Below are positions 18,988 through 36,758 of a stretch of DNA of 64,000 nt, in pieces. A program made the translations under genes and the position numbers. The notes below the pieces were generated by a model, which saw nothing but the letters and a program-made list of their open reading frames with translations, made no database searches and was not told the origin of the DNA. The DNA lies in contig JAIQFH010000013.1 of NCBI GenBank assembly GCA_020073385.1, positions 1 to 64,000 of the forward strand. The letters run 5' to 3'. The DNA is from Terriglobia bacterium. GTDB taxonomy: Bacteria; Acidobacteriota; Terriglobia; Terriglobales; Acidobacteriaceae. Position 1 is the first letter of the stretch; every line of letters begins with the position of its first letter.

Positions 18988-18995
18988 TTCCGTGA

Positions 18996-19814: not shown

Positions 19815-19816
19815 AG

Positions 19817-20818
19817 CTAAGTCATCCTATCGAGCATGGCTTTGGTGACGCGGTTTTGCACGGGCTTCCCGGCCAAGAAACTCTCGAGATCATTCATAAC
19901 GGTATCGGCGATCTCGCGCCGCACGTGACGGCCGCCACCACCCACGTGTGGCGTCAGGATTGCCCCTGGTAATTTGCGCAAGGGGTGATTCAGTGTCAAG
20001 GGCTCTTCGGGATCGGTAACATCCAGTGCACAGCGAAGGCGCTTCCGTCGAACTTCAGCGGTTAGCGCCCCGAGATCGACCAGACCGCCGCGCGCGATGT
20101 TGATAAGGGCCGCTTTATCCGGAAGCAACGACAACGTTTTGCGGTTCAGCAGACCTCGGGTTTGATCCGTCAGCGCCGCAGTCAGGACGAGCAGATGTGC
20201 CATGCGAAGAAGAGGTTCGAGTTCACAAAAGACGACCGGATAACTATCGGCCAGAGAACGCGGCGCGAAGGGATCGTAAACCATCCACCTCAGATCGAAT
20301 CCGCGCATCAGGTCCACGAGAGCGCGCCCAACGCGCCCGAAGCCGATCATCGCTACTTCCCGGCCGTAGAGGAATTCCTCCGTACCGTGCTCATGAACCT
20401 CACTGAAAATTCGGTTGGATTGGCGGACTGCGGCACGATAGCGGTCGATGTCTCGGGCACAGTAGACAAGAAAGGCCGCGCCAAGCTCTGCCGTGGCGCG
20501 AGCCATGGGATCGGCTGCGTTGGTAATCGTTAGCTCCTCGAAGAGAGATGCGGCAAAGCGCGACTTCACCTCTCCTCCACAATGCCCGATGAAGCGGAGT
20601 TTCGGAGCCAAGTCGGCAAGGTCGTCCCCGAAACGTGGGCTGTCCCAGGTCGTGATGAGGGCGTCCGCGGAAGTGAGCTTGCGACGAAAGCCTGCGGCTG
20701 CAGTGCGAGCGGAGTCTCTCTGCCAGTTGCCAATGCTGGTTAGGCGCGACTGGTGATCCGCAGAAAAGAAGGAGTCGAATAGCAACCGTCCCGCAGAGAC
20801 GAGAACATTGGGGGGCAT
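19817..20818 (-). CDS. D-2-hydroxyacid dehydrogenase, NAD-dependent
   Basis: A 333-residue enzyme of the D-isomer-specific 2-hydroxyacid dehydrogenase family. The Rossmann loop MIGFGRVGRAL lies at ~157-167. The catalytic residues appear as Arg in NIARGGLVD (~243), the acid in DVTDPEEPL (~271) and His in LTPHVGGG (~291). It is the first gene of the six-gene minus-strand operon running to 13471, and faces the sodium:solute symporter across 97 bp. It would oxidise a hydroxyacid or reduce a 2-ketoacid derived from the imported substrate. Which acid is not clear. Confidence 0.85.
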   Translation of the reverse strand: MPPNVLVSAGRLLFDSFFSADHQSRLTSIGNWQRDSARTAAAGFRRKLTSADALITTWDSPRFGDDLADLAPKLRFIGHCGGEVKSRFAASLFEELTITNAADPMARATAELGAAFLVYCARDIDRYRAAVRQSNRIFSEVHEHGTEEFLYGREVAMIGFGRVGRALVDLMRGFDLRWMVYDPFAPRSLADSYPVVFCELEPLLRMAHLLVLTAALTDQTRGLLNRKTLSLLPDKAALINIARGGLVDLGALTAEVRRKRLRCALDVTDPEEPLTLNHPLRKLPGAILTPHVGGGGRHVRREIADTVMNDLESFLAGKPVQNRVTKAMLDRMT

Positions 20819-20853: not shown

Positions 20854-20910
20854 CTTATCTTTGTTTATTTATTGCTTCCAATTGATGCGAAAAGACAGTA
20901 TAAGAAAGCG
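20854..20910. promoter_or_regulatory. Candidate AgaR-like operator between divergent operons (phased T-rich repeat)
   Basis: In the 97-bp gap between the dehydrogenase and symporter genes, the plus strand reads cttatctttg then tttatttatt then gcttcc in ~10-bp steps from 20854. A mirrored purine arm follows: gaaaag at 20889 and gaaag at 20904. The word ttatctttg also occurs at the 30.6-kb site. AgaR-type DeoR regulators are reported to use tandem CTTTC-like repeats. The gaaag nearest the symporter may simply be its ribosome site. Confidence 0.4.
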
Positions 20911-20915
20911 TCCAT

Positions 20916-22619
20916 ATGAGCAGCGCAAATGCAGTCGACTACTCGGTGATCGGAATCTATGGCCTGCTGATGGTCGTGGTGGGTCTTTATGTCATGCGTT
21001 TCAATCGCGGGGCTGCGGAATACTTCCGAGGAGGCAGCCGCGTACCCTGGTTAGTGGCCGGCTTGAGTTGCTTCATGTCCGGGTTCAGCGCATGGACTTT
21101 CACGGGCGCAGCGGGCGTAGCGTATCGAGCGGGAATCGCGGCCACCGGCCTCTACATCGGCAATGCGGCCAGCTTTCTACTCGGGTACTTCGTCTTTGCA
21201 CAGCGATGGCGGCGCAGCCGCGTCACCACCGTCATGGAGTATCTGTCTGACCGTTTCAATCCGGTGACGCACCAGACATTTTCCTGGGTCACGATATTCT
21301 TCCAGCTGTTTACCAGCGCCAGCACGTTGTATGGGCTGAGCCTGTTCATTTCCTCGGCGTGCGGATTCCCGGTGCATTGGACCATCATCGGCGCGGGAGC
21401 GCTGATCATCTTCTACTGTGTGGTTGGAGGACTATGGGCCGTTGTGATGACGGACTTCCTGCAGGCGTCCATCCTGATGCCGTTTTGCCTGGTGCTGGTG
21501 ATTACGTCTCTGGCGCGAGTCGGCGGACCGGTCGGACTAATCCATGCTCTGCCGCCGGAGATGAAGACATTGCACGTGTCCGGGGAATTTGGCTGGATCT
21601 ACCTGCTGAGTTGGACCGTCATGGTGTCGTTTGGCTACAACACAAGCGCGATGGCGCAGCGCTACTTCAGTGTTGACGATGAGCGCTCCGCCCGCAAGGT
21701 CGCGCTCTTGTGCTGCGGTCTCTTTTTCGCGGGAGCCTTTCTCTGGTTTATCCCGCCAATGGCGATGCGAGTGCTGTATCCCGACCTGCGGACGGTCTGG
21801 CCAACGCTGGCGAATCCGAGCGAGGCGGCTTATGCCGTTGCCAGCCTGACACTGTTGCCGCACGGCCTCATCGGAGTAATGCTGGCCGCCATGTTCAGCG
21901 CGACGATGGCAAATCTCTCCGCACAGTTCAATCTCAAATCGGCAATTTTGTCGAAAGATGTGTATCAGAAGCTCATCCGAAAGAGCGCCGGCGACCGGGA
22001 GCTTTTGCTGGTTGGGTGGATCACGACCTTGTTGATCGGCGCAACGACGACCGCGATTGCGGCCATCATGGCGGCGAGCGGGAAGAGCGTGTTTCAGATC
22101 ATGCTGACCTTCAATACGCTGATCTCGTTGGCTTACGGACCACCGGCCTTGCTAGGATTGGTGGTGCGGCGCACACCTACCTGGTCGGGCTTGGCCTCTT
22201 TTCTGACCGGACTGGTCCTGGGAATTCTCGGCGCCTTCGTCTTCCATTGGTCGTTGATTCAACAAGTCGCGATCATCATCCCATCATCCTTCGGCGTGTT
22301 CTTTCTCAGCGGATTTTTCGATCGCGGCGACAATCCCGGTCGCAAACATCTGTTCCAAAATCTGAATGCTCCAATCGACGTTGCGGTGGAATTAAAGGAA
22401 TCTCCGGATTTCACTCGTGAGGTGTTTCAATTCCTCAGCCGAACCATCATTGCCATCGGTTTGCTCAGCCTGCTGCTGTTGGGAACGGCTCCCCAAAATC
22501 AGCGAGGTACAGTTGTGTGGTTTGCGGGGCTCACGCTATTGATTGGAGTATCTCTGGGATTGATGAGGACCGCGGGCAAGCGGAAGCAGGTACCGGAGTA
22601 CACCGCGATATCTCGATAG
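20916..22619 (+). CDS. Sodium:solute symporter (SSS family)
   Basis: A 567-residue polytopic protein with about 13-14 hydrophobic helices. Early features are typical of the SSS family: EYFRGGSRVPWLVAGLS after TM1 and the FMSGFSAWTFTGAAG stretch in TM2. The middle part contains FLQASILMPF and a Ser/Thr-rich helix (AMFSATMANLSAQFN). It should import a sugar, sugar acid or similar nutrient with sodium. ATG 20916 is the only sensible start. It is transcribed divergently from the dehydrogenase/isomerase/aldolase operon and is the natural uptake system for that pathway. Its 3' end converges with the DUF5107-TPR gene 10 bp away. Confidence 0.88.
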   Translation: MSSANAVDYSVIGIYGLLMVVVGLYVMRFNRGAAEYFRGGSRVPWLVAGLSCFMSGFSAWTFTGAAGVAYRAGIAATGLYIGNAASFLLGYFVFAQRWRRSRVTTVMEYLSDRFNPVTHQTFSWVTIFFQLFTSASTLYGLSLFISSACGFPVHWTIIGAGALIIFYCVVGGLWAVVMTDFLQASILMPFCLVLVITSLARVGGPVGLIHALPPEMKTLHVSGEFGWIYLLSWTVMVSFGYNTSAMAQRYFSVDDERSARKVALLCCGLFFAGAFLWFIPPMAMRVLYPDLRTVWPTLANPSEAAYAVASLTLLPHGLIGVMLAAMFSATMANLSAQFNLKSAILSKDVYQKLIRKSAGDRELLLVGWITTLLIGATTTAIAAIMAASGKSVFQIMLTFNTLISLAYGPPALLGLVVRRTPTWSGLASFLTGLVLGILGAFVFHWSLIQQVAIIIPSSFGVFFLSGFFDRGDNPGRKHLFQNLNAPIDVAVELKESPDFTREVFQFLSRTIIAIGLLSLLLLGTAPQNQRGTVVWFAGLTLLIGVSLGLMRTAGKRKQVPEYTAISR

Positions 22620-22629
22620 TTGTCCAGGC

Positions 22630-25600
22630 CTACGGAGCAGCTTCGGAACGCGCGAGTCGGGTCAAGTGATAGGTAAGCAGCTGATCCGGATGAAGAAGAG
22701 CTTGGCGGAATTCGGATTCTGCCTCCTGTGTGTGTCCCAGAGCGCGGTCCAACATGGCAGCGTTGTACAGCCACCATCCGGTTCTTGAGCTGATTTCGCT
22801 GGTGCTGCTGGTGCGCTGCAGAACGTTCTCCAACTTCTGCTTTGCCGGGTCAGACTGAACGCCGGGCAATTGTTGCGAGGCTTTCCATGCCCAGATCCCA
22901 TCTTCCAGATCCGAGCGTGATTCAGCATCCTTGAACCTGGCCTGCGCTTTTTCGGGCAACTTGCAGGTCTGGTACAAACTCCCGATGAGGTAGTTGAATC
23001 GAGCTGAGTGCAACAGCGGCTCGAGACCATCCTGTGTGAACGCCAGATCGCGAACTGGATCTTTCAGGTGATCGACCATAGAGATTGCTTCTGAGCAATG
23101 TCCCTGTTGGGCGAGCGATAGGGCGTCCTGCAGTTGCACCTCGAGCCACACCTGGCGGACGTTGGTGCCGCCTTCTTCGCGCTGGAAGAAGCGATTGTGA
23201 AATAGAGCCACTGCCTTCTCGTATTCACCCGACTCTGATAGATTCAAGATCAACTCGTACACGAGGGGTGACGGCATGCTTGCGCGGTCAGGGTACCGAT
23301 CGAGTGCCGCCACTCGTTCCTGCGCAGGTCGGCGCAAGATACTCAAAGCCTGATCCATGCCGGTATAAAGCTCGACATTCGCCGGATCGGCTCGCAGGCC
23401 TTCCTGGAACACGGTCAGCGCATCCTCAGGATCGTTTTTCGCATTTAGAAGTGCGCGCCCTAAGCTCGCATGTAAAACAGGAATTTGCGAATTGAATTTG
23501 CGTGCCAGCTCCCATTCTTTCAGGGCGTCGTCCGTCAGGCCGCGCGAGAAATAGAGTGTTCCGAGCAAGTAGTGGGCAGTTGCGTCTTCTGGATTGGAGT
23601 GCAGGGCACTGTTCAAGACGGCGATGTCCTCTGCCCGGCTCGGGAAAACATAGGCAGTCGAGAGTTTTGAGGCCGAAGCAAAATCGGCCGACCCTGAGCC
23701 GCCGAGCTTCTCCCGGCAATATCCGCGGTAGTAACTGACCAGGGGGTGTTTCTGTGGGGGAAGGGCTCCGGGTTCAGTTTCGTCCGCAACTGAAGGTGGA
23801 TACTGCCGGGAGAGGGCATCAAGAGCCTGGGAGCATAGTCCAAGCCGAATCTCCTCAGATACCACGTTTAAGACGCGCTCGGCATCATCGGCGAGATGGT
23901 GCAGATCAGGCTTCACAGTTTGCTCGAGCAGGAAGTACCTCTGAGGAAATCGATCTAACCATTCCCTTGCCAGTCTCTGAGATTCTTCAGTTTTCCCTTC
24001 GGCTCGCAGGACAGCCACCAACTCTTCCGCCGTTCGAAGATCATCGGGCGCCGCACGAAGTGCGTCTTTCAGGAATTGCTCGGCCTGCTGCAGATCTCCG
24101 TCTCGAGCCAGAAGCTCGGCCAGTCGCAATCCTCCTGCGGCGCGGTAGGCGGGCTGCCGATATGCTGCTTCATACGATTCACGCGCCTCTCGGGTTTGGC
24201 CGAGACCCTCATACGAAATGCCAAGATAGTACGAGATTTCGGAATCGGAAGTATCGCGATCATGCACCGGTTCGAGATAGCCCTTGGCCTCCTGATGTCG
24301 CAGCAAGCTGGCGCACAGGCGTCCCGCGGCCTTCCGCGCTTCGAAGCTGTCCGGAAACTTCGCAATGGCATCTTGATACGCCTGCAGAGCCTGCAGCAGC
24401 CGCCCATTGAGCTCGTGCTCAGACCCAAGTTGGATCCAATCATCTTCCGTGCGGTTTTCTGGATCCGGGATGCGATGGGAAGGCTGCGGCCCTACGTGAA
24501 TATCCTCGAGCGGAGTCCAGTCGTACGCACCTTCGGTCTGGTGCAATAGAACCGCTCCCTTGTTGTCGCGCAATTCGAATGTGTATTTCTGTTGCGGATC
24601 AACGTTGGCGATCTCGTGCGACCATGTCCGCTCGGGCGTGAGGTCGGCCTTATCCTCAAATACTGCCTGATTTCCAACCGCAATGCGTATCGCTGCGCCC
24701 GGATGTGCCTGGTTCACGTTAAGGCTGGCAGTAAGCGCGCTTCCGTGGCGATTTAAATATACAACTCCTGCGAGGTTGGCCCTGGAGATTCCGCCGATCT
24801 CTCGCACTGGCATCCAGAATTCAGAGAAGCTGATCGTTTGGCGAGGCTCAAGAAAGGCATACGTCTCCTGATTACGAAGCAGACCCGCCTGGATTTCTAC
24901 GTAAATGCTGTTGTTGTCCGAAAGAGCTTTTCGCCAGTCGAGTCCGTCGGCATCGGAACCCCACGACCAGATCTTCTTGCCGGGGAGTTGCGCGTAATCC
25001 GCGTAGTGCACTATTCCGGTGTTCGTGTGCGGATTCCACACACCCATGAAAGGCTCCCGGCTGCCATGCACGAACAGGGATACGGGACCTTTGGTGTGAT
25101 TCTTGATGATGCTGAGGTCCGTGCCGTCAGCCTCGACCGGCCACGGCTCGACTTCGCGAAAACCGTGGCTGGCGGTGAAGCGCATCGGGTATTGAATGCG
25201 CGAGTCATCCCAAACCTGGACTCCGGCATTGTTCCACCAATAAAAGCGGTGCCTGACATCGCTGCGATTGTTGAGAGTGACTTTCTCTTCAAGGACCGTA
25301 GAGTGGGGCCGCAGAATGAGTTCTACGGTCCACTGCATGCCGTACACGCGATCGACGTTGCCCACCTGAACGTAAGCGCTGCCATCCTCGCGTTGCGCAA
25401 ATGCAAAATCGACGGGCGAGGCCGTCACCCAGTTGTGGGAAACCGGAAAGTTGAACTCGATGCCGAAGGCCGCCCAGGCTCCGCGGTAGGCGACATCAGC
25501 TTTCTTGATGGAAGGATTCTCGTAAAATATTGGCTTGCCGCTGATCTTGTCGGTGCAGCTGTACAGATGTCCGCCAATGTCGGGCAACACCGAGCACTTC

Positions 25601-25845
25601 AGATATTCGTTTTCAAGAAACAGCGCGCGCCAGGCGTGATCGGTGCGGTGATCAGTCAGATTGCGGCGCAGCGTGTACGGATAATTGAAGCGCGTGTTCT
25701 GATATTGATCGAATGGCGGATTAGGATCAGGCGCACCTTCTTCATACGTCGGCAGGGTCAACGTTCCCTGCCAAACACGTACTTGGGACGACGCGCAACC
25801 AACAGCCAACAGGAGAAAAAAGAAGACGAATTTCGGTCGAATCAT
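22630..25845 (-). CDS. DUF5107 domain + TPR lipoprotein-like exported protein
   Basis: The start is ATG 25845, overlapping the upstream stop as ATGA; the track start is 29 codons too long. The 1,071-residue product has an export signal ending in LAVGC, which looks like a lipobox. Residues ~30-380 match my recollection of DUF5107 (LTLPTYEEG, LENEYLKCSVLPDIGGHLYS, AAFGIEFNFPVSHNW), a galactose-mutarotase-like beta-sandwich. A long TPR array fills the remainder (residues ~470-1071). Such proteins accompany glycan-degradation genes and may bind or process oligosaccharides at the cell surface; catalysis is not proven. It is the last gene of the operon starting at 30622. Confidence 0.78.
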   Translation of the reverse strand: MIRPKFVFFFLLLAVGCASSQVRVWQGTLTLPTYEEGAPDPNPPFDQYQNTRFNYPYTLRRNLTDHRTDHAWRALFLENEYLKCSVLPDIGGHLYSCTDKISGKPIFYENPSIKKADVAYRGAWAAFGIEFNFPVSHNWVTASPVDFAFAQREDGSAYVQVGNVDRVYGMQWTVELILRPHSTVLEEKVTLNNRSDVRHRFYWWNNAGVQVWDDSRIQYPMRFTASHGFREVEPWPVEADGTDLSIIKNHTKGPVSLFVHGSREPFMGVWNPHTNTGIVHYADYAQLPGKKIWSWGSDADGLDWRKALSDNNSIYVEIQAGLLRNQETYAFLEPRQTISFSEFWMPVREIGGISRANLAGVVYLNRHGSALTASLNVNQAHPGAAIRIAVGNQAVFEDKADLTPERTWSHEIANVDPQQKYTFELRDNKGAVLLHQTEGAYDWTPLEDIHVGPQPSHRIPDPENRTEDDWIQLGSEHELNGRLLQALQAYQDAIAKFPDSFEARKAAGRLCASLLRHQEAKGYLEPVHDRDTSDSEISYYLGISYEGLGQTREARESYEAAYRQPAYRAAGGLRLAELLARDGDLQQAEQFLKDALRAAPDDLRTAEELVAVLRAEGKTEESQRLAREWLDRFPQRYFLLEQTVKPDLHHLADDAERVLNVVSEEIRLGLCSQALDALSRQYPPSVADETEPGALPPQKHPLVSYYRGYCREKLGGSGSADFASASKLSTAYVFPSRAEDIAVLNSALHSNPEDATAHYLLGTLYFSRGLTDDALKEWELARKFNSQIPVLHASLGRALLNAKNDPEDALTVFQEGLRADPANVELYTGMDQALSILRRPAQERVAALDRYPDRASMPSPLVYELILNLSESGEYEKAVALFHNRFFQREEGGTNVRQVWLEVQLQDALSLAQQGHCSEAISMVDHLKDPVRDLAFTQDGLEPLLHSARFNYLIGSLYQTCKLPEKAQARFKDAESRSDLEDGIWAWKASQQLPGVQSDPAKQKLENVLQRTSSTSEISSRTGWWLYNAAMLDRALGHTQEAESEFRQALLHPDQLLTYHLTRLARSEAAP

Positions 25846-27065
25846 AAAGTGATCCCTAAGAGGCGGGCAGCGTTCTGGTGATAGACCTTGCGCAGCACCG
25901 AGTCGGGCAGTTCGATGCCGTAGATGCGCCAACGGCCCTGCGGCGGCACATTTGCCGGCGCGTAGTCGAAATACTCGTCAGCGGTTTCAAGAAAGCGATA
26001 GTAGATCTCGTACAGTTTCTGGTTGAACAATTGCTGTGGAGTCTCGTCTCCGTGCGGCGTCGCATCGGTGCCGAAAAGAATGCGGTCTTGATGGCGATCA
26101 AAGAACCGCCGCGCTCGGCGCGGCTGACGGCCCAATTCTCCGATTCGCGCTGCAAGATCGACCGTCATATTCGGGAAACGGTCGAGATTTTCGGATACGT
26201 TGTCCAGGTCTTCGGCGAAGTTTCCTACGTGCAAGACAAGGAACTGCGTCTTGGGATGCCGCGCGAATACCCGATTGCGTGCCTCAAGCAGTTCGGCATT
26301 GCTGGGATAGTCCTGTCCGTAAAACGACCAATCGGGATGATTGTTGAGTTCCTCATACCTTTCGTTGAAACGATCCGTCGGCGTAAAGAAGGCGATGGGA
26401 TCCGACACATGAATCGCGACTGGCATGTTGAACTGGCCGCAGGCATCCCACATCGGATCAAACCTGGGATCATCCACTCGTACCAATTTGCCTGACGTCA
26501 GGTTCTCGCGCAGATAGAGTCCAAGTGTCTTCAGGATCTTCAATCCTTTGGCTCCAGCGCGATGCGCGCGCTCGACGGCGTCTGCCTGAATCTGCGGATA
26601 GTTCGGCTCCAGAAACCGCGAGTAGGTCGGTTCGGCGAAGGTGTAGAAGCGGTGAGGATAAGATTGGTCATATTCGCGAATCGTGTCGACGAGCCCGTCA
26701 TCGAATCCACCGGTTAGATTGACCATCGCCCGGATATTCTTGGCGTCCATCACGCGAAGCAGTTCGTCCGGTTTGGCGAGGTAGGTCCGCTCCGCGCCGA
26801 GATCGATTCCCTTCTCCGACTTCGCCGATACGGTGATGTGGGTATGGACATCAATGACCGGGAATTTGGCGCGGTCAATGTGCGTCTCCTGGACGTGAAG
26901 CATACTCTTGGGTTCAAAATCGACGAGCGCCAAGGGCTGACCCGAAGCAGATTGTTGCGCGGTTGGTTCCGCGGCTGCATATGCCAAAGCGTGTGAGCTA
27001 CGTGGTTGAGCGGCCGCTCCAATGGCGACGCCCAGCCCTTGCAGCACTTTTCTTCGGTTGATCAC
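25842..27065 (-). CDS. Tat-exported amidohydrolase (Amidohydro_2-type TIM barrel)
   Basis: A 407-residue protein. The GTG start overlaps the SIS stop as GTGA. The N-terminus NRRKVLQGLGVAIGAAAQ is a twin-arginine signal. Metal-ligand motifs of the amidohydrolase superfamily are visible: DVHTHITV (HxH), AIHVSDP, LHVGNFAED and FGTDATPHGDE. It resembles the PF04909 branch (decarboxylase/lactonase-like) rather than NagA deacetylases, so I do not call it an N-acetyl sugar deacetylase. Tat export implies that a folded metal enzyme works in the periplasm. It overlaps the DUF5107-TPR gene by four bases, indicating translational coupling. Confidence 0.8.
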   Translation of the reverse strand: MINRRKVLQGLGVAIGAAAQPRSSHALAYAAAEPTAQQSASGQPLALVDFEPKSMLHVQETHIDRAKFPVIDVHTHITVSAKSEKGIDLGAERTYLAKPDELLRVMDAKNIRAMVNLTGGFDDGLVDTIREYDQSYPHRFYTFAEPTYSRFLEPNYPQIQADAVERAHRAGAKGLKILKTLGLYLRENLTSGKLVRVDDPRFDPMWDACGQFNMPVAIHVSDPIAFFTPTDRFNERYEELNNHPDWSFYGQDYPSNAELLEARNRVFARHPKTQFLVLHVGNFAEDLDNVSENLDRFPNMTVDLAARIGELGRQPRRARRFFDRHQDRILFGTDATPHGDETPQQLFNQKLYEIYYRFLETADEYFDYAPANVPPQGRWRIYGIELPDSVLRKVYHQNAARLLGITL

Positions 27066-28303
27066 TGACCTTCTCCTAAGGACGATCCAGCAGGAAAGTG
27101 CAGAGCGAAATTCTGCACGACGCGGTTGATAACACCACTCTCGGAGGGCGAATCGGGCCGTAATCCTGCCCGCATGCAGCGGAAGAATCCCAGCAACTGA
27201 CCAATGATGACCTCGATGACTGGGGCACTATATTCACCAAGTTCGGCGAGACCGGGACAATCAATGACCACATCCCGATCTCGCGCCAGGTCCGCAGGAA
27301 CCGCATCTCCCACAATTAACTTCGTCATGCCCAGGTCTTTCTGATTGAGTTCGTGAATGAGGTCGCACTCGTAAGATCTCGCGGTTGCATCGGAGGAAAG
27401 GTAGCAGACTACCAGAGTGTCAGCGTGCACATAGCTCATCGGCCCGTGGCGAAGACCGAGGTAGGTTTCGGACATAGCGCCGACGTGGCCTGCCGTCATT
27501 TCGAGCATCTTCAAGGCCGCTTCGAGGATGGCGCCCAATCGCGGCCCACTTCCCAAAAATACGGCCCGCTTGAAGCCCAGGGCGCCGACTTGCGCCAATG
27601 TGTCAAATTGTGTTTCCAAGAGCTGCTTTGCGATGTTGCTCAGGTGACGGCAGTGCGATGTGTATAGCTCAGGCTCGTCGAGGAATCCAAGAGCGTAGGC
27701 GGCCAAGGCCAGATTCGTGAAACTGCTCGTCATCACCAGGCTGCGATCGTTGGTCTCATCATGCAAGGTAACGACCCGAACGCGCGGGTCTTGTTGAAAG
27801 TTCGTCGCCACCTTCCCACCGGCATTACAGGTCAAGACCAGGTGATGAATCGCGGGATCGGTTTTGAGCAACAAGGAAAGTGCGCCTACGCTTTCCGGGC
27901 TGTCGCCCGATCGAGCGATCGAAATCAGCAGCGCAGGACGTCCCGGAGGCAGTGCATGCAAATGCGTCAGCAAAGCACCGCCGCCAATGGCGAGGGTGTT
28001 CACTCCGAGTCGAGTCTGCAGCGCGAGACGCGCACAGTGACCCGCATACTCGGAACTCCCGGACCCCGTCAGGACTATGTTTCGGAGTTCTGACACGCAA
28101 GACCGCAAGTCGGGGGCGAGTCTCACTATCTGATCCGCAGTTCGGATCCAACTGAAGGGCTGCTGCACGATTTCCCGAAGAGTGTGATAGTAGCCGCGAC
28201 TGCGCTGCTCGTCTTCGGTCGCACGGAACAATCGGGCAGCTTGCGGTTGTCGTTCGCAGACATCATGGAGCCACTCGGGGGACGCGATGGTTGAGGTAAA
28301 CAT
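27062..28303 (-). CDS. agaS: AgaS-like SIS-domain sugar-phosphate isomerase/deaminase
   Basis: ATG 28303 has AAGGATG about 8 nt upstream and gives 413 residues. Two SIS domains are recognisable: LTGSGSSEYAGHCARLAL and SIARSGDSPESVGAL in the first half, FLGSGPRLGAILEAALKMLEMT in the second. The arrangement and length match the AgaS family, which acts on galactosamine-6-phosphate, and the isomerase half of GlmS; no glutaminase domain is present. It should be cytoplasmic. It follows the Asp-box gene by 57 bp and overlaps the Tat amidohydrolase. An AgaR-like repressor lies 7.5 kb away, supporting the amino-sugar assignment. Confidence 0.78.
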   Translation of the reverse strand: MFTSTIASPEWLHDVCERQPQAARLFRATEDEQRSRGYYHTLREIVQQPFSWIRTADQIVRLAPDLRSCVSELRNIVLTGSGSSEYAGHCARLALQTRLGVNTLAIGGGALLTHLHALPPGRPALLISIARSGDSPESVGALSLLLKTDPAIHHLVLTCNAGGKVATNFQQDPRVRVVTLHDETNDRSLVMTSSFTNLALAAYALGFLDEPELYTSHCRHLSNIAKQLLETQFDTLAQVGALGFKRAVFLGSGPRLGAILEAALKMLEMTAGHVGAMSETYLGLRHGPMSYVHADTLVVCYLSSDATARSYECDLIHELNQKDLGMTKLIVGDAVPADLARDRDVVIDCPGLAELGEYSAPVIEVIIGQLLGFFRCMRAGLRPDSPSESGVINRVVQNFALHFPAGSSLGEGQ

Positions 28304-28360
28304 GCCAGTACATCCTTGTCTGATGCGGCAACCGGCTGAGCCGCGATGCAACGACCCGGA

Positions 28361-30622
28361 TCATTCCCGTCCAGGCTGCAATTCTGGTGTGGCGATATCC
28401 AACGGTTCGTCCCGGCCCGACAGCGAACCATGCCAGACGCTGCCTCCGAAGGTCGAGACGTATATCTTATTGTGATCAATCGGATCAGGAATCACCCGGT
28501 ACGACCATTTGAAGTTGAATCCGGGAATCCGGGCCCAGTGTTCGCCGCGATCGTTCGAACGCCAGGCGGAAGACTCGAATCCGGACGCGTACAGAACACT
28601 CGAGTCATTGGGATCGATGGTGACGTCGTAAACATGCCGGTCCCGGTCAAAGATCGGCCGCCAACTGCGACCAGCATCTTCGGAAAGAAAAATGCCGCCG
28701 CCGTCGCCGTGTGTGCCGGCGGCGCGCGCCCATGCTGCGAGATACAACCGCTGTGGGGACTTCGGATCTACGGTGAGCGCATTGGGTCCGTTCACCCCTT
28801 GAGGCAATTGGATGGGATTCCAATGCTCTGCACCGTCCCGAGAGGAATAGAGGGCGCCGTCATACGGAGTGCCAATGCTGCCGTCCTCCGAACGGCGCGC
28901 AATCACCACATAGAGAGTACCGTCAGAGGCCAGGGACAATCGCCATGCGAACGGTTGCTTCTGCATGATCCCCTGATTCTTCAGCGACCAGGTCTTGCCG
29001 CCATCGGTACTCTTATATACACCTCGCCCGAATCCTGCGACGTACAGAACGCGATCGTCGGGCGGGCTGTTGGGGTCGAGCAGAATGTGGGTTGGCGCAG
29101 TGTCGTCCATTCCTGAGTTCGATTTGCGCCATGTCTTTCCGCCATCCTCGCTCAGACAGACTCCGCCTTTGTACTTCGCCGGATCCGTGTGTCGCCACAT
29201 CTTCGGACGCGGCAGGTCGTGCACATAGCTGTTCACGCTCCACATGCGACCCCGCACCTTCGGATCAAACGCCACCCAGTAGGTGGTGTTGGTCCACCCG
29301 GACGGAACTCCCGCGGTGGAGCTCTGCCAACTCGCGCCACCGTCTTCGCTGCGGAAAAGACCTATGTCGGTGTAGGTAATGAATTGACGACTGGGATCAA
29401 ACGGATCGAAGTGGATTCCGTATGCATTCGTTACATCCAGACCTGTACTTACCCATCCTCCCGACGGCACCTTCCGCGAATAGACTGCCCACCAGGTGGC
29501 GCCACCGTCGCTGGTCTTCATGGTTCGGCCGAGATCAGTGCCGTAAGCGAGGTTCGCATCTTGATCAGCGACTCCGAGCGCGAGCGGGTTCTCTCCCCAC
29601 ACAACACCGAAACGCGGAGTAATCCAGGCATCGTGGACATTGGGAGCGGCAGCATCAGCTTCCTTCCAGACCAGTTGCCAGGATTCTCCGGCGTTCTCGG
29701 TCTTCGCTACCCCCATCCATTTCTTCCCGTCGAGTGCTAACTCGCTGTATGACAGATAGGCCACGTTGCCGTTGCGGCGGCTGGTTGCGACTGCCCGAAC
29801 CTGAGCTCCAGAGCCGGGAAGAGATGTCGAGTGCCAAGTGCGGCCCCCGTCTTTCGAAACGAATGCGCCCTTCTCCGAAACGCCATAAATCACCTGCCCG
29901 GATCCCTCGGTGAAGCCGGCTGAGACATCTGTGAATGTCACCGACTTGGGCGCCGGAAAGTTATGCAATCCAGCGCTGTCTTTCACCGATACATACTGCG
30001 GCCCGGCCAGGTAGATCGTGCGAGATTCGCGCGGAGACTTCGGATCGATCCAGATGCGGCGGGGAATCTCAGCCAAAGCATCTGTTCGCGTCCAACTCTT
30101 TCCCCAGTCATGCGAGACAAAAAGCGCCAAGTGCGCCTTGTCGCCCGTGGCATACAGAACCTTGGAGTTCTCCGGGTCTGCCGCCAGAGCGGTGAGCAGG
30201 CCCATCGGATTGTCATCGCTCACCAAGTCTTCATCTGAGTGATCAGATCGCATCACGATGGTCTTGATCTTTTCGGGTGCGGGATACACTAGCTTCCAAC
30301 TCTCACCGCTGTCCGTGCTGCGCCAGAGCCCGGTCGCCTGCGCATACATCACCTTCGGATCTGTCGGATCGAACAAAAAAAAACGCACGACGCCCCGCAG
30401 ATTAAACATTCGCCACGACTGTCCTCCGTCGTGGGTAATGTAGGAACCCGTCATGTCACAGGAAATGAGAACCGTGTTCGGGTCATGAGGGCTGATCGTC
30501 GGGTTGAACATCGCGCCACCACCGCCGGGACCGATGACCTTGAAATCCCCGGGACGCACTGCAAAAGCTGCGGCTGTAAGAAGAAGAAGGAGGAAGGCAG
30601 ACCATAGCCTGACGTTTACCAT
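28361..30622 (-). CDS. Exported multi-Asp-box (BNR/GH74-sialidase-like) protein
   Basis: A 753-residue protein with a signal peptide (FLLLLLTAAAFAV). It contains twelve Asp-box-like turns, among them THDGGQSW, STDSGESW, SHDWGKSW, SKDGGRTW, TSDGGATW, SEDGGKTW, STDGGKTW and SEDAGRSW. That repeat number suits a tandem pair of seven-bladed propellers as in GH74 xyloglucanases and VPS10-like proteins. I did not find a sure catalytic Asp pair, so either a glycosidase or a binding propeller is possible. It is the first gene of the operon ending at 22630. The phased CTTTC repeat is directly upstream of its ATG. Confidence 0.78.
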   Translation of the reverse strand: MVNVRLWSAFLLLLLTAAAFAVRPGDFKVIGPGGGGAMFNPTISPHDPNTVLISCDMTGSYITHDGGQSWRMFNLRGVVRFFLFDPTDPKVMYAQATGLWRSTDSGESWKLVYPAPEKIKTIVMRSDHSDEDLVSDDNPMGLLTALAADPENSKVLYATGDKAHLALFVSHDWGKSWTRTDALAEIPRRIWIDPKSPRESRTIYLAGPQYVSVKDSAGLHNFPAPKSVTFTDVSAGFTEGSGQVIYGVSEKGAFVSKDGGRTWHSTSLPGSGAQVRAVATSRRNGNVAYLSYSELALDGKKWMGVAKTENAGESWQLVWKEADAAAPNVHDAWITPRFGVVWGENPLALGVADQDANLAYGTDLGRTMKTSDGGATWWAVYSRKVPSGGWVSTGLDVTNAYGIHFDPFDPSRQFITYTDIGLFRSEDGGASWQSSTAGVPSGWTNTTYWVAFDPKVRGRMWSVNSYVHDLPRPKMWRHTDPAKYKGGVCLSEDGGKTWRKSNSGMDDTAPTHILLDPNSPPDDRVLYVAGFGRGVYKSTDGGKTWSLKNQGIMQKQPFAWRLSLASDGTLYVVIARRSEDGSIGTPYDGALYSSRDGAEHWNPIQLPQGVNGPNALTVDPKSPQRLYLAAWARAAGTHGDGGGIFLSEDAGRSWRPIFDRDRHVYDVTIDPNDSSVLYASGFESSAWRSNDRGEHWARIPGFNFKWSYRVIPDPIDHNKIYVSTFGGSVWHGSLSGRDEPLDIATPELQPGRE

Positions 30623-30628
30623 TTGATT

Positions 30629-30653
30629 CTTTCTTTTACTTTCGTTATCTTTG
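30629..30653. promoter_or_regulatory. Candidate AgaR-like operator: CTTTC x3 at exact 10-bp spacing
   Basis: The plus strand reads CTTTC at 30629, CTTTC at 30639 and CTTTG at 30649, one helical turn apart, 7-31 nt upstream of the Asp-box gene. On the transcribed strand the nearest copy (gaaag) may double as a weak ribosome site, but three phased copies are not explained by that. It lies between that gene and the divergent Tat-exported gene at 30714. Confidence 0.5.
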
Positions 30654-30713
30654 CGTCACCACTCTGCTGCAAAGTTTTAGAAATGTCAACCGCAAAGTGG
30701 CGAGGCGTTCCCC

Positions 30714-32252
30714 ATGCAAAGAAGAAGCTTGTTGAAGGGCGCGGCTGCGGTAGCGGCACTGGCGCCCGCCGCGGCACTTGCGCAGGCATTCGGAAACCAG
30801 AGGTTCAGTTCACCCATACCCTCGCACGATCGCCTGGAACAGGGACCGTTCGACATCGACCAGGATGAGGGATGGCTTACCGCGCTCTACACCACGCCAT
30901 CGGAAAAGCCTGTGCGCAATCCCGGCCTCGGACTTGTCGGATACACATGGGAGGAAAGCGGCCCGTCACTGGCTGCTCGCGCCGGGCGTGAAACGCTCGA
31001 ACAGCACGTGGAGAATATTTCCAGTCTGCCCTTCGTCGACGTTCTTTACATTCGCTGCGACTGGCGCAATGTGCAGTCCCGGCCGGGAAGGCTCGACCTC
31101 GATCCCGTGTGGAGACTCACCCTTGACGCTGCGAAGCGACACGGCTTGAGGGTTGCCTTTCGAGTGCAGATCTCGAATACTTCGTTCCAACCGGAACAGA
31201 TCGCGTTACCAGAATTTTTGCGCTCGCGCGTTCCGACGGCCAAGATCGGCCGCATTCCCGGACAAGGCAACGCGGAATGGGTTGAACCGCGCTACGACCA
31301 TCCGGAATTCCAGAAAGCTTTCGCCGAACTCAACGGTCTGCTGGCAGCCGAGTTTGACGGAAACCCACTCATCGAATGGACGGACGTCATGCAATATGGA
31401 TTCTGGGGCGAAGGCCATACCAGCAATTATCCGAATCCATTTCTCGACTACCCGACGGCGGAGCGCACATTTGTTGAGATGACGGAGCTCCAACTGGAAA
31501 CGTGGAAGAAAACTCCTCTCGCCTTTAACACTCAGCCCGACATCAGCAATGTCGGCAACCGCAAGACCCTGGCCATGGCGATGAGTGCCGGAGCCTGGCT
31601 TCGCTCGGACAGTATCATCGTCGAGGAACCGATCCAGATTGACCAGATTGCGAACCGGCCACCGTGGCTGGCGGCAATTCTCGAGGACGGATACTTTCGT
31701 CAGTACGATACTGCCAAGCTGTCCAAAGACGAGAGCGGAATGAACATTCTTGAGAGCTACATGCTGCACACGCTGGACGTGCGCGCGAACTACTGGGGGT
31801 TGTGGACTGAGTCTGCGAACCTTGCGCATTACAACCAGATGTATCCTCGCGGTTTCGAGCGACTGCGCACGAATCTCGGCTACCGCTTACGGCCGTCGTG
31901 GGTGTGGCAGCGAAAACGCCATGGAACCGCCGAAGTGATTGTCGCAGTGTCCAATCGCGGGGTTGCGGGAGTTCCTGGCATGCTTTGGCTGCAATTGGCG
32001 AGCCCTGACGGGAAGCTGAAATTGCGCGGCACGCTTGATGCCGGACTTCCGTCCGGTGGAGGCATTCGCCTCGCCTCATTCTTCTTGCCGGCAGGATTCA
32101 CCGGCACGGTTCACCTCTCGGCAGAGTTGGAGATTCGCCCTGGGGTCGTAAACCCGATTGCATGGGCGTGCGAACAACCGCTCAACCCTGATGGATCGAT
32201 CGCCATCGAAGTGCGAAAGAACGATGATCCTGGCTGGAGAAAGGGGGTGTAA
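30714..32252 (+). CDS. Tat-exported putative glycoside hydrolase (TIM-barrel, DUF4832/GH42-like)
   Basis: A 512-residue protein beginning QRRSLLKGAAAVAAL, a clear twin-arginine signal. The middle looks like a TIM barrel of beta-galactosidase/DUF4832 style: VDVLYIRCDWRNVQ and RHGLRVAFRVQIS strands, then EWTDVMQYGFWGEGHTSNY, where the Glu of WGEGH is a plausible acid/base. A C-terminal beta-sandwich-like part ends the protein. I cannot assign a GH family or substrate. It is divergent from the Asp-box operon across 91 bp and converges with the heparinase-like gene. Both neighbours act on glycans, which is the main support for the call. Confidence 0.6.
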   Translation: MQRRSLLKGAAAVAALAPAAALAQAFGNQRFSSPIPSHDRLEQGPFDIDQDEGWLTALYTTPSEKPVRNPGLGLVGYTWEESGPSLAARAGRETLEQHVENISSLPFVDVLYIRCDWRNVQSRPGRLDLDPVWRLTLDAAKRHGLRVAFRVQISNTSFQPEQIALPEFLRSRVPTAKIGRIPGQGNAEWVEPRYDHPEFQKAFAELNGLLAAEFDGNPLIEWTDVMQYGFWGEGHTSNYPNPFLDYPTAERTFVEMTELQLETWKKTPLAFNTQPDISNVGNRKTLAMAMSAGAWLRSDSIIVEEPIQIDQIANRPPWLAAILEDGYFRQYDTAKLSKDESGMNILESYMLHTLDVRANYWGLWTESANLAHYNQMYPRGFERLRTNLGYRLRPSWVWQRKRHGTAEVIVAVSNRGVAGVPGMLWLQLASPDGKLKLRGTLDAGLPSGGGIRLASFFLPAGFTGTVHLSAELEIRPGVVNPIAWACEQPLNPDGSIAIEVRKNDDPGWRKGV

Positions 32253-32293
32253 CGTTAGGCGTTTCACCTCGCATGCGAAGTAGAAATCTGTAG

Positions 32294-34705
32294 CTATCGG
32301 ATGAGGTGGATCCGCAGCCGTCCGTCTTTGTGGCCGGCAAATGGAATGCGCAGCACTCCGGCGCGATCGGTGTCCGCTGCCCCGCTCCACAGATGAACTC
32401 CTTGAAATAATCCGCCGCCCCATGTTTTCGTCTTGCCGCCCGTGAGTTCCAGTTCGTACTTCGATTCTGGTTTTAGCCCAGTCGCGATAAGAGTCTGAGT
32501 CTCGACATCAGGTACTGTAATTTCGCCGTCCGTCACCGGAACCTGGTCGGTCGCGAACACCACAAGCGTCTGGCCTCCGATTACGGCACCTGTGAGATTG
32601 CTGCCATCTGCCAGTTCAACGTGAAGATTTCTGGCGTCACCTTTATTTCCGATTTCCAACACATTCAAGAAAAGATCATCTCTGCTGGGTTTGGCGGGGG
32701 AAATTTCAATTCGCCATGATCCGGGCACCACGTGCAGCATATTGGAGGGTGAGATGCGATCGAGATCGTTCCCCCAAAACGTGAGCCACATCTTCTTCAG
32801 ATAGGGATCGGTGGGCAGAGGACCGCCTTTCGCATCTTCGATAGGCCAGTTCTTTCCCGTGCCCCACGCGCCACCGAACTCGTCGCCCGGCGTCCAGAAT
32901 TCCCAGCCTGGCCCACCGCGCTTCACCGTTTCGTGTTCACGCGGCAGTAGCGTGTGAACGAGCAGACGTCCACCGCCATCTTTGAAAGAGAAGCTGTCGG
33001 CATTTGTGTACAAAGTGCCGCCGTGGCCCTCGTCTTGTCCTGGCTGCGTCGCGTCAACTGACGGCTCATTCACGCCGTGCAACAGCCATACTTTTTTGTA
33101 GGAGGGATCCTTGGCGCGCACGTGATCAAACACCACGAGGGTATTCGTGTGTGGAAGATAAAGAAGCTCTCGAGTGAACAAGTCGAGTTTGGATGAGCTA
33201 TAGGCATGGGTGGCATCGCCACGTGCATATTGGAACTCGCCAGGCACATGGTCCGTAATCTGCATGCGAGCCAAGTCCCACAGGTCACGCGTTTGCTCCC
33301 AATCTTCCACGCTGCGGATGGTATTCCAGTAACGTGACGAGTCCATCCGCTGTCCGCCATCGTTGGCCGCAGGCCAGAGATTCTCCGCCCAAAAAAATGG
33401 CTCGCCCTGCTTGTAGATGAGCATGGTGTTGTGCGCGATGGTTCGGCGGTAGTAGTTGAGATAGTTGGGACTTTCGGTCTCGGTATAGTCCGCCGCGGTG
33501 TCAAGCGCCAGATATCCGCGGTGGTAAATCGTGAACTGGTTTTGATCCAGGTGCTGATGTTTCGAACTGTAGGGTCCCGCCGTGAACTCGATCCAGGTCG
33601 AATCGGGGCCCCAACCATCTCGCATCACCAAATCGCCAACACCACTGAATAGATGTTGACGCGGCAACTCTGTCTCAGTCGCCAGCGCAGGATCGCGCGG
33701 CGTGACCAAAGGGTCGTCCCACAGAAACTGCAGGATCGGGATGTACCATTTTGAAGTGGAAGGCCATCCGCTCTTGCGCAGCATCCAGGCCGCGTAGGGA
33801 TCCTTGAACCGGTTCACGGTATAGCCGAGCACGTCATTGTCTTGCGCGAGATAGTACGGCCACTCGTTGTCTCCACGGCGCGACGTCGTTCCATCGGGAA
33901 GTGTTTTGTAGAGGTAGGTGTCGCCATAGTGCGAGTAGACGGTGAAGCGACGCGCCGGATCATCGCCGGTCGTAGTTCTTCGGAGCTCAGCCAGCAGCGC
34001 CATGGGCAGGAATGTGATTCGCTGGTAGTCCATGGATTCGTGATAACCACCCTCGGGCGTCACGAATTGGCTGATCGCGAGCACATTATTGAGCGAACGG
34101 CGGGCACGGTCACGCAGCGCCGCAGCGCGGGCTTCGGTAGAGGGATGCCCTTCGATCGCCGTCAGCGCAAATGTCGCCAGAGTAAGAAAGCGGACCGCGT
34201 AATTGTGATACGAGACCAGCGCGGGATCGGCGAGTGCGTTGTCCTGAAACATGCGCTCGGCTCCATTCAGCAACTCGCCGGCGATGCGATCTTTTAGCGC
34301 GCTATCAAATTGATTGCAGTCGTACAGCCAGTCAAAGGCGAGCGACCAGCGGACGTAATCCATGTATGTGCGCGATCCCACCTTCTCCGGCAGGTGCGTT
34401 CGCCGCATCTCATCCAGTGCCCGTTTCGCGAACGTTTCATCGCTTGTCAGCAGGTAGGTCAGAGCCTGTCCGGCGATGTCATCACTCGGGCGCATGCCTG
34501 CGACGTATCTGGCTCGCAAGATCGAGAGACCCGTAAAAGGATCCTCTTGCCCGATCAAGAGCCGTGGCCTCGTTAAGCTGGCGGATGTCTGTGCGAGCGC
34601 GACGGAGCAAGGCAGCATCAGCAACCAGGCCCAAATGGTGAAACGGAGATACAGAGGACGCAGAGAGTGAGTCCGATAGTTCCTATGATTTCGATAGAGC
34701 TTCAT
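32294..34705 (-). CDS. Heparinase II/III-family polysaccharide lyase
   Basis: ATG 34705 (inside the longer track ORF) gives ~803 residues with a long N-terminal charged region and a signal segment (WAWLLMLPCSVALAQ). Residues ~70-330 form the helical toroid of alginate/heparinase lyases (SRTYMDYVRWSLAFDWLYD, YHNYAVRF). A Hepar_II_III beta-sandwich follows with SKHQHLDQNQFTIYHRGYLALD, where the His/Asp/Tyr cluster sits. The family cleaves uronic-acid-containing glycans by beta-elimination. The precise substrate is unclear; amino-sugar genes nearby make a glycosaminoglycan-like or bacterial polysaccharide possible. It is divergent from a Gfo/Idh/MocA oxidoreductase with only 88 bp between starts. 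The ribosome site is weak. Confidence 0.8.
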   Translation of the reverse strand: MKLYRNHRNYRTHSLRPLYLRFTIWAWLLMLPCSVALAQTSASLTRPRLLIGQEDPFTGLSILRARYVAGMRPSDDIAGQALTYLLTSDETFAKRALDEMRRTHLPEKVGSRTYMDYVRWSLAFDWLYDCNQFDSALKDRIAGELLNGAERMFQDNALADPALVSYHNYAVRFLTLATFALTAIEGHPSTEARAAALRDRARRSLNNVLAISQFVTPEGGYHESMDYQRITFLPMALLAELRRTTTGDDPARRFTVYSHYGDTYLYKTLPDGTTSRRGDNEWPYYLAQDNDVLGYTVNRFKDPYAAWMLRKSGWPSTSKWYIPILQFLWDDPLVTPRDPALATETELPRQHLFSGVGDLVMRDGWGPDSTWIEFTAGPYSSKHQHLDQNQFTIYHRGYLALDTAADYTETESPNYLNYYRRTIAHNTMLIYKQGEPFFWAENLWPAANDGGQRMDSSRYWNTIRSVEDWEQTRDLWDLARMQITDHVPGEFQYARGDATHAYSSSKLDLFTRELLYLPHTNTLVVFDHVRAKDPSYKKVWLLHGVNEPSVDATQPGQDEGHGGTLYTNADSFSFKDGGGRLLVHTLLPREHETVKRGGPGWEFWTPGDEFGGAWGTGKNWPIEDAKGGPLPTDPYLKKMWLTFWGNDLDRISPSNMLHVVPGSWRIEISPAKPSRDDLFLNVLEIGNKGDARNLHVELADGSNLTGAVIGGQTLVVFATDQVPVTDGEITVPDVETQTLIATGLKPESKYELELTGGKTKTWGGGLFQGVHLWSGAADTDRAGVLRIPFAGHKDGRLRIHLIR

Positions 34706-34793
34706 AACGAGGAGAATTATAGGAGCCACGTCAAACGAATCGATTTCTGGGGATCGGTGGCATGCTCCGCTCGCATCGACTACACTACGCGCC

Positions 34794-35768
34794 ATGAGCA
34801 TTCGGATTGGATTGCTCGGTTGCGGCGAGCACTCTGAGGTCGGCCACGCAGTTCCGCTGGCACACTATTCCGCTAAACACCCGGGTGCCGTTGTCCTCGT
34901 CGGAGCCTGTGACCTCCGCCGTGAGCGGGCAGAATTGTTCTGTCAAAAGTACGGCTTCGCACGCGCCTATTCTGATATGGACGCCATGCTCCAGAGCGAG
35001 AGACTCGATGTCTGCATTGCTGTGATTCCGGTCGAACATATTCCGTCCGTGGGCATCAGGCTCCTCCAGGCGCACGTTCCTTGCGTTGTGGAGAAGCCGC
35101 TGGGGCCGTCTATCGCTGAGGTCGAAGTGTTGCGTGATGCTGCGCGGGCCACGAACACAGTCAACATGGTGTCAGTAAATCGGCGTTTCATGCCGTTACT
35201 CAAACAGGGAATCGAGTGGACGAAGAGCACCGGACCTCTTCGCTACGTGCGCGCAACGATGTTGCGGCACCAGCGAACCGAGCCAGATTTTCTCGGTTTC
35301 ACAGCTATACATGCCCTGGATACGGTTCGGTTCATCGGCGGAGACTTTGCCTCCAGTAACATCCGGGCAATCACGCCGGCAGCCCCGCACTCGTTCGTCA
35401 TCGATATTCAATTCGAGGCGGGAATCGTTGGCCGTGTTGATGTGCTGCCGACGTCTGGCATGGTTGAAGAAACCTATGAACTGATCGGCGACGGCTTTCG
35501 TTGTGTCGTTACCAGCCCCTTCGGACCGCAGCGGTTCTTACGCTGCTATCAGAAGAACCGTCTTGTGCAGGAAGAGATCGCAGACGACCAACCGGAGGAT
35601 GTGATCTTTGGGTTCTACGGAGAGGCTGCCGAATTGGTCGATGCGTTCAAACAAGGTCGACGCCCAGAACCCACAATCGAAGACATCTTTCCATCGGTGC
35701 AGGCTTGTTTTGAACTCGTAAAGCGCGTAGAAAACAATCCTACATCGATCGCCCCTTTCTCGCGCTAG
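34794..35768 (+). CDS. Gfo/Idh/MocA-family oxidoreductase
   Basis: A 324-residue NAD(P)-dependent oxidoreductase. The N-terminal Rossmann motif GLLGCGEHSEVGHA is slightly unusual, with Glu-His where family members often have small residues. The catalytic-lysine motif is CVVEKPLGPS at ~98. The C-terminal half is the typical open beta-sheet domain. Members oxidise sugars, inositols or keto-sugars, or act in unusual glycosidase routes. The start ATG 34794 lies 88 bp from the divergent lyase start, suggesting shared control. The following gene, the AgaR-like repressor, converges on it. Confidence 0.85.
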   Translation: MSIRIGLLGCGEHSEVGHAVPLAHYSAKHPGAVVLVGACDLRRERAELFCQKYGFARAYSDMDAMLQSERLDVCIAVIPVEHIPSVGIRLLQAHVPCVVEKPLGPSIAEVEVLRDAARATNTVNMVSVNRRFMPLLKQGIEWTKSTGPLRYVRATMLRHQRTEPDFLGFTAIHALDTVRFIGGDFASSNIRAITPAAPHSFVIDIQFEAGIVGRVDVLPTSGMVEETYELIGDGFRCVVTSPFGPQRFLRCYQKNRLVQEEIADDQPEDVIFGFYGEAAELVDAFKQGRRPEPTIEDIFPSVQACFELVKRVENNPTSIAPFSR

Positions 35769-35789
35769 TCAGGGCTGCAACTTGAGCGA

Positions 35790-36575
35790 TCAGACCACGA
35801 CGACTTCAATGCCCTTTTTGCGGAGCGCATCGGTAAAACTCTCGGGCGCGTGCTCGTCGGTGATCAAGCGATGAATATTCTCAAGGGGACCAATGTGGAA
35901 GAGACTGCGGCGGCCGAGCTTCGTGGAATCGGCTACGACTGTCACTTCGCGCGAGACTTTCATCATCAGCCCGTTGAGTTGCGCCTCGAGTACATCAGCC
36001 GTGAATGGCCCCGCGTCAAGGTCCAGGCCGTCAACGGCGAGAAACAGCCGGTCGGCGTGCAATTCGCGAAGCATGGCCTCGGCCTGCGGTCCGACAAACG
36101 AGTAAGACACCGTTCTCAATAGGCCGCCCAGCATAAACAGCGCAATTTCCGGAGCATCCACGAGCTCGTTCGCGATGTTGAGTGCGCTGGTAATTACCGA
36201 TACTTTGAGCTTCGCGCGTTTCAGGCTCTTTGCAATCTCCGCCGTCGTCGTGCCTGAATCCAAAATGACGGTTTCATTGGGCTGTACCAGCTGCGCAGCG
36301 GCCTGACCGATGCGCACCTTCTCCGAGCGGTGCAACGTCGCCTTGAGTTTTAAGGGATAGTCTTGAGTGGGCGCGTAGCGAACCGCGCCTCCATGCGAGC
36401 GCAGCACCGCGCCCTGACTCGATAGAGCATCGAGGTCGCTCCGAGCAGTGACTGCCGAAACCGCGAACCTTTTGACCAGGTCATGAATGGTGACCTGCCC
36501 AGACAGCTCAACCAATTCAAGGATCTTGCGGCGGCGGCCCTCGGCGAGCAGCCGTGAATTGTCGGATTTCGACAT
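35790..36575 (-). CDS. agaR: DeoR-family transcriptional repressor, AgaR-like
   Basis: A 261-residue DeoR-type regulator. The N-terminal HTH spans ~15-57 (RRRKILELVELSGQVTIHDLVKRFAVSAVTARSDLDAL), followed by RSHGGAVR, the usual hinge. The C-terminal sugar-phosphate sensor has DSGTTTAEIAKSL (phosphate loop), FMLGG and ADSTKLGRRSLF. The effector in this family is a phosphorylated sugar; in AgaR an amino-sugar phosphate. It is divergent from TonB receptor 1. T-rich 10-bp-phased repeats in the shared 183-bp gap are the best candidate operator, and similar repeats precede two other operons. The AgaR label rests on neighbouring agaS/nagB-like genes. Confidence 0.8.
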   Translation of the reverse strand: MSKSDNSRLLAEGRRRKILELVELSGQVTIHDLVKRFAVSAVTARSDLDALSSQGAVLRSHGGAVRYAPTQDYPLKLKATLHRSEKVRIGQAAAQLVQPNETVILDSGTTTAEIAKSLKRAKLKVSVITSALNIANELVDAPEIALFMLGGLLRTVSYSFVGPQAEAMLRELHADRLFLAVDGLDLDAGPFTADVLEAQLNGLMMKVSREVTVVADSTKLGRRSLFHIGPLENIHRLITDEHAPESFTDALRKKGIEVVVV

Positions 36576-36680
36576 GAACGCCAGACCGAGTCTATTCGTT
36601 GAAAGCGCCTTTGGTCAAATTATTGCTTACCATTGCCCCCTTCTGACTTGTGATTTTCTTTTTATTGCCTTGCGTTACAT

Positions 36681-36710
36681 TTTTCTTTTGCTTGTTTTTG
36701 CTTTCGTTTT
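36681..36710. promoter_or_regulatory. Candidate AgaR-like operator: three 10-bp T-rich repeats
   Basis: Three consecutive decamers, ttttcttttg cttgtttttg ctttcgtttt, lie 49-78 nt upstream of the TonB receptor 1 start and ~106 nt from the repressor start. This part of the gap is much more T-rich than the surrounding DNA. The orientation (CTTTC on the plus strand) is the same as at 30.6 kb. The rest of the 36576-36758 gap shows no gene. Confidence 0.5.
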
Positions 36711-36758
36711 GTGATACAAGTCCGGCGTCGCTCATTTAATGCATTCACGGAGTTGCTT

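Follow-up and report, generated by a model that had tools for sequence, protein, structure and literature searches.

Phased CTTTC-like boxes as candidate operators of an AgaR-like regulator in an acidobacterial polysaccharide-utilisation cluster

The window (the whole 64-kb stretch of Terriglobia bacterium DNA analysed here) contains the gene of an AgaR-like DeoR-family regulator, divergent from that of TonB receptor 1, an Asp-box/AgaS operon divergent from a gene for an exported protein with a Tat-type signal (the Tat-signal gene below), and a dehydrogenase operon divergent from a symporter gene (Table 1). The first-pass annotation had placed a DeoR protein at 35790-36575; the family assignment stands, with both Pfam domains above their cut-offs (PF08220, 53.7 bits; PF00455, 169.9 bits), and the bounds are corrected to 35793-36575 on the minus strand. 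The best NCBIfam model is AgaR (NF040755, an equivalog) at 258.3 bits, and since this lies 1.7 bits below the curated cut-off of 260 we call the protein AgaR-like. With the same model the orthologs in L202 (260.8) and L218 (265.9) pass, and that in L199 (256.2) falls under the cut-off. The regulator is 41% identical to Escherichia coli AgaR over 251 residues, and the two have the VILDSGTTT loop in common.

Among the remaining genes, the AgaS-family product scores 270 bits, under its NCBIfam family cut-off of 529, and no phosphotransferase system component was found among the cluster genes scanned with Pfam and NCBIfam. The exported protein is 51-75% identical in relatives; its predicted structure (mean pLDDT 80) is nearest to barrel glycoside hydrolases, for example GH35 beta-galactosidases, at low TM scores of about 0.4. 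We note that in the 891-residue CBM9/acetyl-esterase-like protein (13471-16146) residues 1-231 and 232-891 match different places in several relatives, which suggests a fusion in the Terriglobia bacterium genome.

Table 1. Features of the window, with the fused regulator genes of relatives in the last row.
Feature	Position	Strand	Remarks
Dehydrogenase operon	13471..20818	-	Pfam; 2-hydroxyacid dehydrogenase, xylose-isomerase-like barrel, GNAT, epimerase, DHDPS-like, CBM9/acetyl-xylan-esterase-like protein
Degenerate array CTTAT/TTTAT/GCTTC	20854..20880	+	between dehydrogenase operon (minus) and symporter gene (plus); 17.4 bits
Purine arm, same promoter	20883..20908	-	minus strand CTTTCTTATACTGTCTTTTCGCATCA; 18.3 bits; adjoins conserved GTATAAG of symporter promoter
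Sodium:solute symporter	20916..22619	+	Pfam SSF
Asp-box/AgaS operon	22630..30622	-	Pfam, NCBIfam
DUF5107-TPR protein (Asp-box/AgaS operon)	22630-25920	-	
Amidohydrolase (Asp-box/AgaS operon)	25842-27065	-	
AgaS-family sugar isomerase (Asp-box/AgaS operon)	27062-28351	-	
Asp-box/sortilin-like protein (Asp-box/AgaS operon)	28361-30622	-	
Predicted operator array	30627..30660	-	between Asp-box/AgaS operon (minus) and Tat-signal gene (plus)
Exported protein, Tat-type signal	30714..32252	+	no Pfam family; predicted barrel fold
AgaR-like DeoR-family regulator, 261 aa	35793..36575	-	Pfam HTH_DeoR + DeoRC
Second predicted array, regulator's side of intergenic region	36652..36685	-	GTAACGCAAGGCAATAAAAAGAAAAT; 17.0 bits
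Predicted TonB receptor 1 operator array	36679..36712	-	36681-36710 in the first-pass annotation; minus strand CGAAAGCAAA AACAAGCAAA AGAAA
TonB-dependent receptor 1, carboxypeptidase-regulatory N domain	36759..40508	+	Pfam
Fusion regulator gene	L053:2106-3395; L098 from 2665		further copies in G020, G017, G034, G027, G021

All three intergenic regions carry CTTTC-like arrays at operon heads, as had been annotated. At 30629-30653 the plus strand reads CTTTC TTTTA CTTTC GTTAT CTTTG; the three boxes follow one another at intervals of exactly 10 bp, just as previously described, and neither strand of the window has another 14/15 match with this spacing. The array occupies the spacer of a promoter read by eye, TTGATT-17-TATCTT, with the same spacing in L202, L204 and L199; a consensus promoter scan gives no sigma-70 promoter at 30.6 kb. 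The orthologous promoters carry CTTTCTTTTGCTTTCGATATCTTTTC (L202), CTTTCTTTTGCTTTCGTTATTTTTCC (L204) and CTTTCGTTTTCTTTCGATATGCTTCT (L199), and in clusters where AgaS is the neighbour of the Tat-signal gene the series is AGAAAG/AGAAAC/CGAAAG.

Between the regulator and TonB receptor 1, the three T-rich decamers reported at 36681-36710 read TTTTCTTTTG CTTGTTTTTG CTTTCGTTTT on the plus strand, and they overlap the receptor's core promoter as read by eye, TTGTTT-17-TACAAG. Within the window alone the 10-bp step has no clear advantage here over other steps. The array exactly matches a 23-base pattern present only four times in 8.2 Mb; the window sites were known when the pattern was drawn up, and its exact matches, four in all, are therefore no independent evidence. 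A second array at 36652-36685, absent from the first-pass annotation, lies between the TonB array and the regulator gene and faces the latter, for which the consensus scan finds only TTGACC-18-TAGACT (36618-36589). It is a probable autoregulatory site.

The region at 20854-20910 contains CTTATCTTTG TTTATTTATT GCTTCC followed by a purine arm, CGAAAAGACAGTATAAGAAAG. The decamer series and purine arm claimed there are thus present, and they align with their orthologs, but the boxes are degenerate and the array taken alone is weak. Of ten orthologous promoters, most can be aligned to it gaplessly, its boxes in register with stronger ones, and GTATAA is conserved in 11/11 aligned dehydrogenase-symporter promoters. 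The consensus scan finds no sigma-70 promoter at 20.9 kb.

Two matrices, neither containing sequence from this genome, were used to score the arrays. The first was built from regions upstream of AgaR-like genes in the same genus and family, where 26 promoters share GACAAACGAAASNAAACGMTATAAAAAGAAAT shortly ahead of the gene and six others have CGAAAGTAAAAGTTATTAAACGMAATGATACGAAA in common. It ranks 36679-36712 highest in the window (22.1 bits), 36652-36685 second and 30627-30660 third (13.3 bits). In simulated 64-kb sequences the median maximum was near 6 and the highest 17.1, against which the 30.6-kb site appears marginal by this matrix alone. The 20.9-kb region reaches 3.5 bits and is by itself not significant in the window. 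The second, or cluster, matrix comprises twelve operators of relatives, chosen and registered by eye, and orders the window as follows: 30629 (24.8), 36685 (23.3), 36681 (21.7), 20883 on the minus strand (18.3), 9292 (17.8) and 20855 (17.4). The other promoters of the window (HepII-GFO, TonB2, M13-kinase) score low, and 450 kb sampled from the same genome has a maximum of 19.0, with no second position reaching 17.4. Because orthologs of the 20.9-kb promoter supplied four of the twelve training operators, the matrix score of that promoter measures retention rather than independent discovery.

The cluster matrix was fixed before any look at E. coli. Applied to the 11-kb aga region of strain K-12, it gives 24.3, 21.4, 19.4 and 18.2 bits in the agaS and agaR-kbaZ intergenic regions; these four are the only sites of the aga region at or above 18 bits, and 150 kb of other K-12 DNA has a maximum of 17.8. 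The phasing is likewise distinctive. For GMAAS triples in 28 promoters of relatives, compared with dinucleotide-preserving shuffles, step 10 has a combined z of 9.6, a value inflated because orthologous promoters are not independent, a kinship that does not explain the step preference. Steps 7-9 and 11-14 in the same promoters give z of 0.9 to 3.2, and 17 control promoters show no step preference. The predicted target promoters show the hallmark of AgaR-type operators, CTTTC-like boxes repeated in tandem every 10 bp.

The cluster is conserved. The 28 loci with a Tat-signal gene come from metagenome-assembled genomes labelled Candidatus Sulfotelmatobacter, Acidobacteriaceae, Bryobacterales, Granulicella and others, nearly all of them Acidobacteriota, and many have the same gene set. 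Their operon heads (BNR-Tat, AgaS-Tat, dehydrogenase-symporter) keep the arrays, and relatives' HepII gene is preceded by CGCAAGTAAACACAAGTACTCGCAAGCAAAAG. The conservation check named at the outset thus came out in favour: arrays and 10-bp phasing are kept at orthologous promoters of relatives that retain the repressor's HTH. For example, L202 has an AgaR 65% identical to the window regulator, and its TonB-AgaR region, which was not in the training set, scores 28.1 bits with the cluster matrix. In several Tat-signal loci without a linked AgaR of the window type the arrays are absent; L218, with an AgaR 64% identical, yet has no array ahead of its Tat-signal gene.

How far does the putative regulon extend? 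Genome-wide work comprised pattern and profile searches and the 450 kb of sampled sequence. The loose pattern YTTTC-N5-YTTTC-N5-YTTT has 18 matches genome-wide against 24 for the reversed control; besides the window site, one further match is exact. The first-pass annotation had named a lack of genome-wide enrichment as a finding that would count against it, and there is indeed no enrichment; it follows that the regulon would be small and local, probably linked to AgaR and AgaS genes. A sequence-only covariance model, R1, proved too strict, recovering the promoters of the AgaR-like genes on contigs C26 and C66 and missing the window sites. Separately, a second AgaS gene on C63 (G000:C63:87357-87380; L112:7358) has a phased ATTTC-N5-CTTTC-N5-CTTTT conserved across the genus, about 90 bases ahead of the matched AgaS stretch, and arrays resembling YTTTC-N5-YTTTC-N5-CTTTT precede 12 of 24 AgaS genes in relatives.

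We propose, with a probability of roughly 0.84, that the AgaR-like regulator uses the phased CTTTC/GAAAG boxes as operators; it would repress all three promoter regions. Sites lie next to the regulator gene, in the region that separates it from TonB receptor 1, and in front of the AgaS-containing operon, and the earlier proposal that the DeoR protein controls its own region, TonB receptor 1 and the Asp-box/AgaS and symporter/dehydrogenase operons gains support from the ortholog arrays and the E. coli matrix match. Regulator subunits would line up along a single DNA face, each turn of the helix presenting the next box, at sites that overlap or adjoin the core promoters. Three target sets would be repressed: the regulator's own gene with the divergent TonB receptor 1; the Asp-box/AgaS/amidohydrolase/DUF5107 operon with the exported hydrolase-like gene that diverges from it; and the 2-hydroxyacid dehydrogenase operon with the divergent symporter. 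Repression would be lifted when the DeoRC domain binds a phosphorylated sugar of the pathway inside the cell, perhaps an amino sugar given the AgaS in the cluster. We infer binding, repression, the ligand and the identity of the acting paralog, the ligand and the direction of control from knowledge of the family. If correct, the proposal tells which operators to look for, and which genes they would control, in a polysaccharide-utilisation cluster that is conserved among uncultured soil Acidobacteriota.

Which protein would read the arrays, and are they operators at all? The genome has three AgaR-like proteins, and the arrays could be real AgaR-type operators bound mainly by the paralog on C26 or C66, the window regulator having a minor or overlapping role. 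Both paralogs pass the AgaR cut-off, and their own promoters have a closely related array with a common operator consensus. We consider this improbable: the strongest sites cluster round the window gene, species with a 55-65% identical regulator or an HTH fusion retain both HTH and arrays, and the helix after the turn differs (SAVTARSDLDAL versus SQVTIRKDLEIL). Less probable still is that the repeats are general promoter features, either T-rich UP elements or Shine-Dalgarno complements of the divergent gene. The regions are AT-rich and one GAAAG at 30.6 kb does stand 6 bases ahead of the Asp-box gene's start codon; the Shine-Dalgarno explanation, which the first-pass annotation had listed as potentially fatal, was rejected for every box but that one; it accounts for at most one box at 30.6 kb and for no upstream box. 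Moreover, the excess at the 10-bp step over dinucleotide-preserving shuffles has no counterpart in control promoters, the array is still conserved where AgaS is the downstream gene, and the match to the E. coli aga promoters is specific.

A narrower reading would leave the 20.9-kb element outside the regulon, with functional AgaR operators at 30.6 and 36.7 kb only. Its degenerate boxes and its 3.5 bits with the matrix from AgaR promoters favour exclusion; its position-by-position alignment with stronger ortholog arrays, and two cluster-matrix scores of a height reached once in 450 kb, speak for membership, and we regard exclusion as unlikely.

In Candidatus Sulfotelmatobacter, eight copies of the cluster encode an AgaR-type HTH followed by a LacI HTH and Peripla_BP_3; the carriers are G037, G020 (two), G039, G017, G034, G027 and G021, and partly G031. 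The fusion stands in the place of the normal AgaR, and its AgaR HTH is 63-73% identical to that of the window regulator. In the fusion genomes the closest AgaR is 47% identical, versus 64-65% for orthologs elsewhere, and the cluster promoters retain the arrays; the window genome has a normal AgaR-like protein and no fusion was found in it. We lean, by a modest margin, towards the view that in these sister species a chimeric regulator reads the same arrays, the DeoR phosphosugar sensor having given way to a LacI-family regulator that brings both an HTH of its own and a periplasmic-binding-type sensor, so that operator code and cluster are kept and the signal shifts from a phosphorylated intermediate to a free sugar. 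Such a natural series of sensor swaps (DeoR versus LacI sensor on the same operators) offers a model for a change of signal without loss of targets. In some fusion-regulator clusters AgaS is in pieces (L104:14917-15988 in G037; L196:8417-9155 in G027), and in L099, L101 and L104 a reading frame that by eye is HAD-phosphatase-like lies between AgaS and the Tat-signal gene. In the literature searched, we found neither a DeoR-LacI fusion nor an AgaR regulon of Acidobacteriota described.

How do these observations compare with known systems? AraR of Bacillus subtilis joins a GntR HTH to a LacI-type sensor. The relatives' fusion is like it in setting a foreign HTH on a LacI-type sensor, and unlike it in that this HTH is of the DeoR/AgaR type and the LacI-type HTH is retained as well. 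What is new here is the fusion that keeps the AgaR HTH and the arrays with a LacI-type sensor. Streptococcal AgaR1 and AgaR2 belong to the GntR/HutC family and use palindromic sites (PMC4694137); they have only the name and the amino-sugar pathway in common with the window's DeoR-type regulator and are unrelated to it. Reported targets of E. coli AgaR, the N-acetylgalactosamine/galactosamine aga repressor, are agaR itself, agaZ and agaS (PMC4694137), and the protein reportedly represses two operons, kbaZ-agaVWEFA and agaS-kbaY-agaBCDI (PMC10101011). The likeness lies in the DeoR family, the CTTTC-like boxes at 10-bp steps, and targets, predicted ones in the window, that include the regulator's own gene and an agaS-type gene. 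Unlike the E. coli protein, the window regulator falls just below the AgaR cut-off, its predicted targets are a TonB receptor, exported hydrolase-like proteins, a symporter, an amidohydrolase and dehydrogenases, and the genes scanned here include no phosphotransferase system. The comparison points to a CTTTC operator code that E. coli AgaR has in common with regulators of another phylum.
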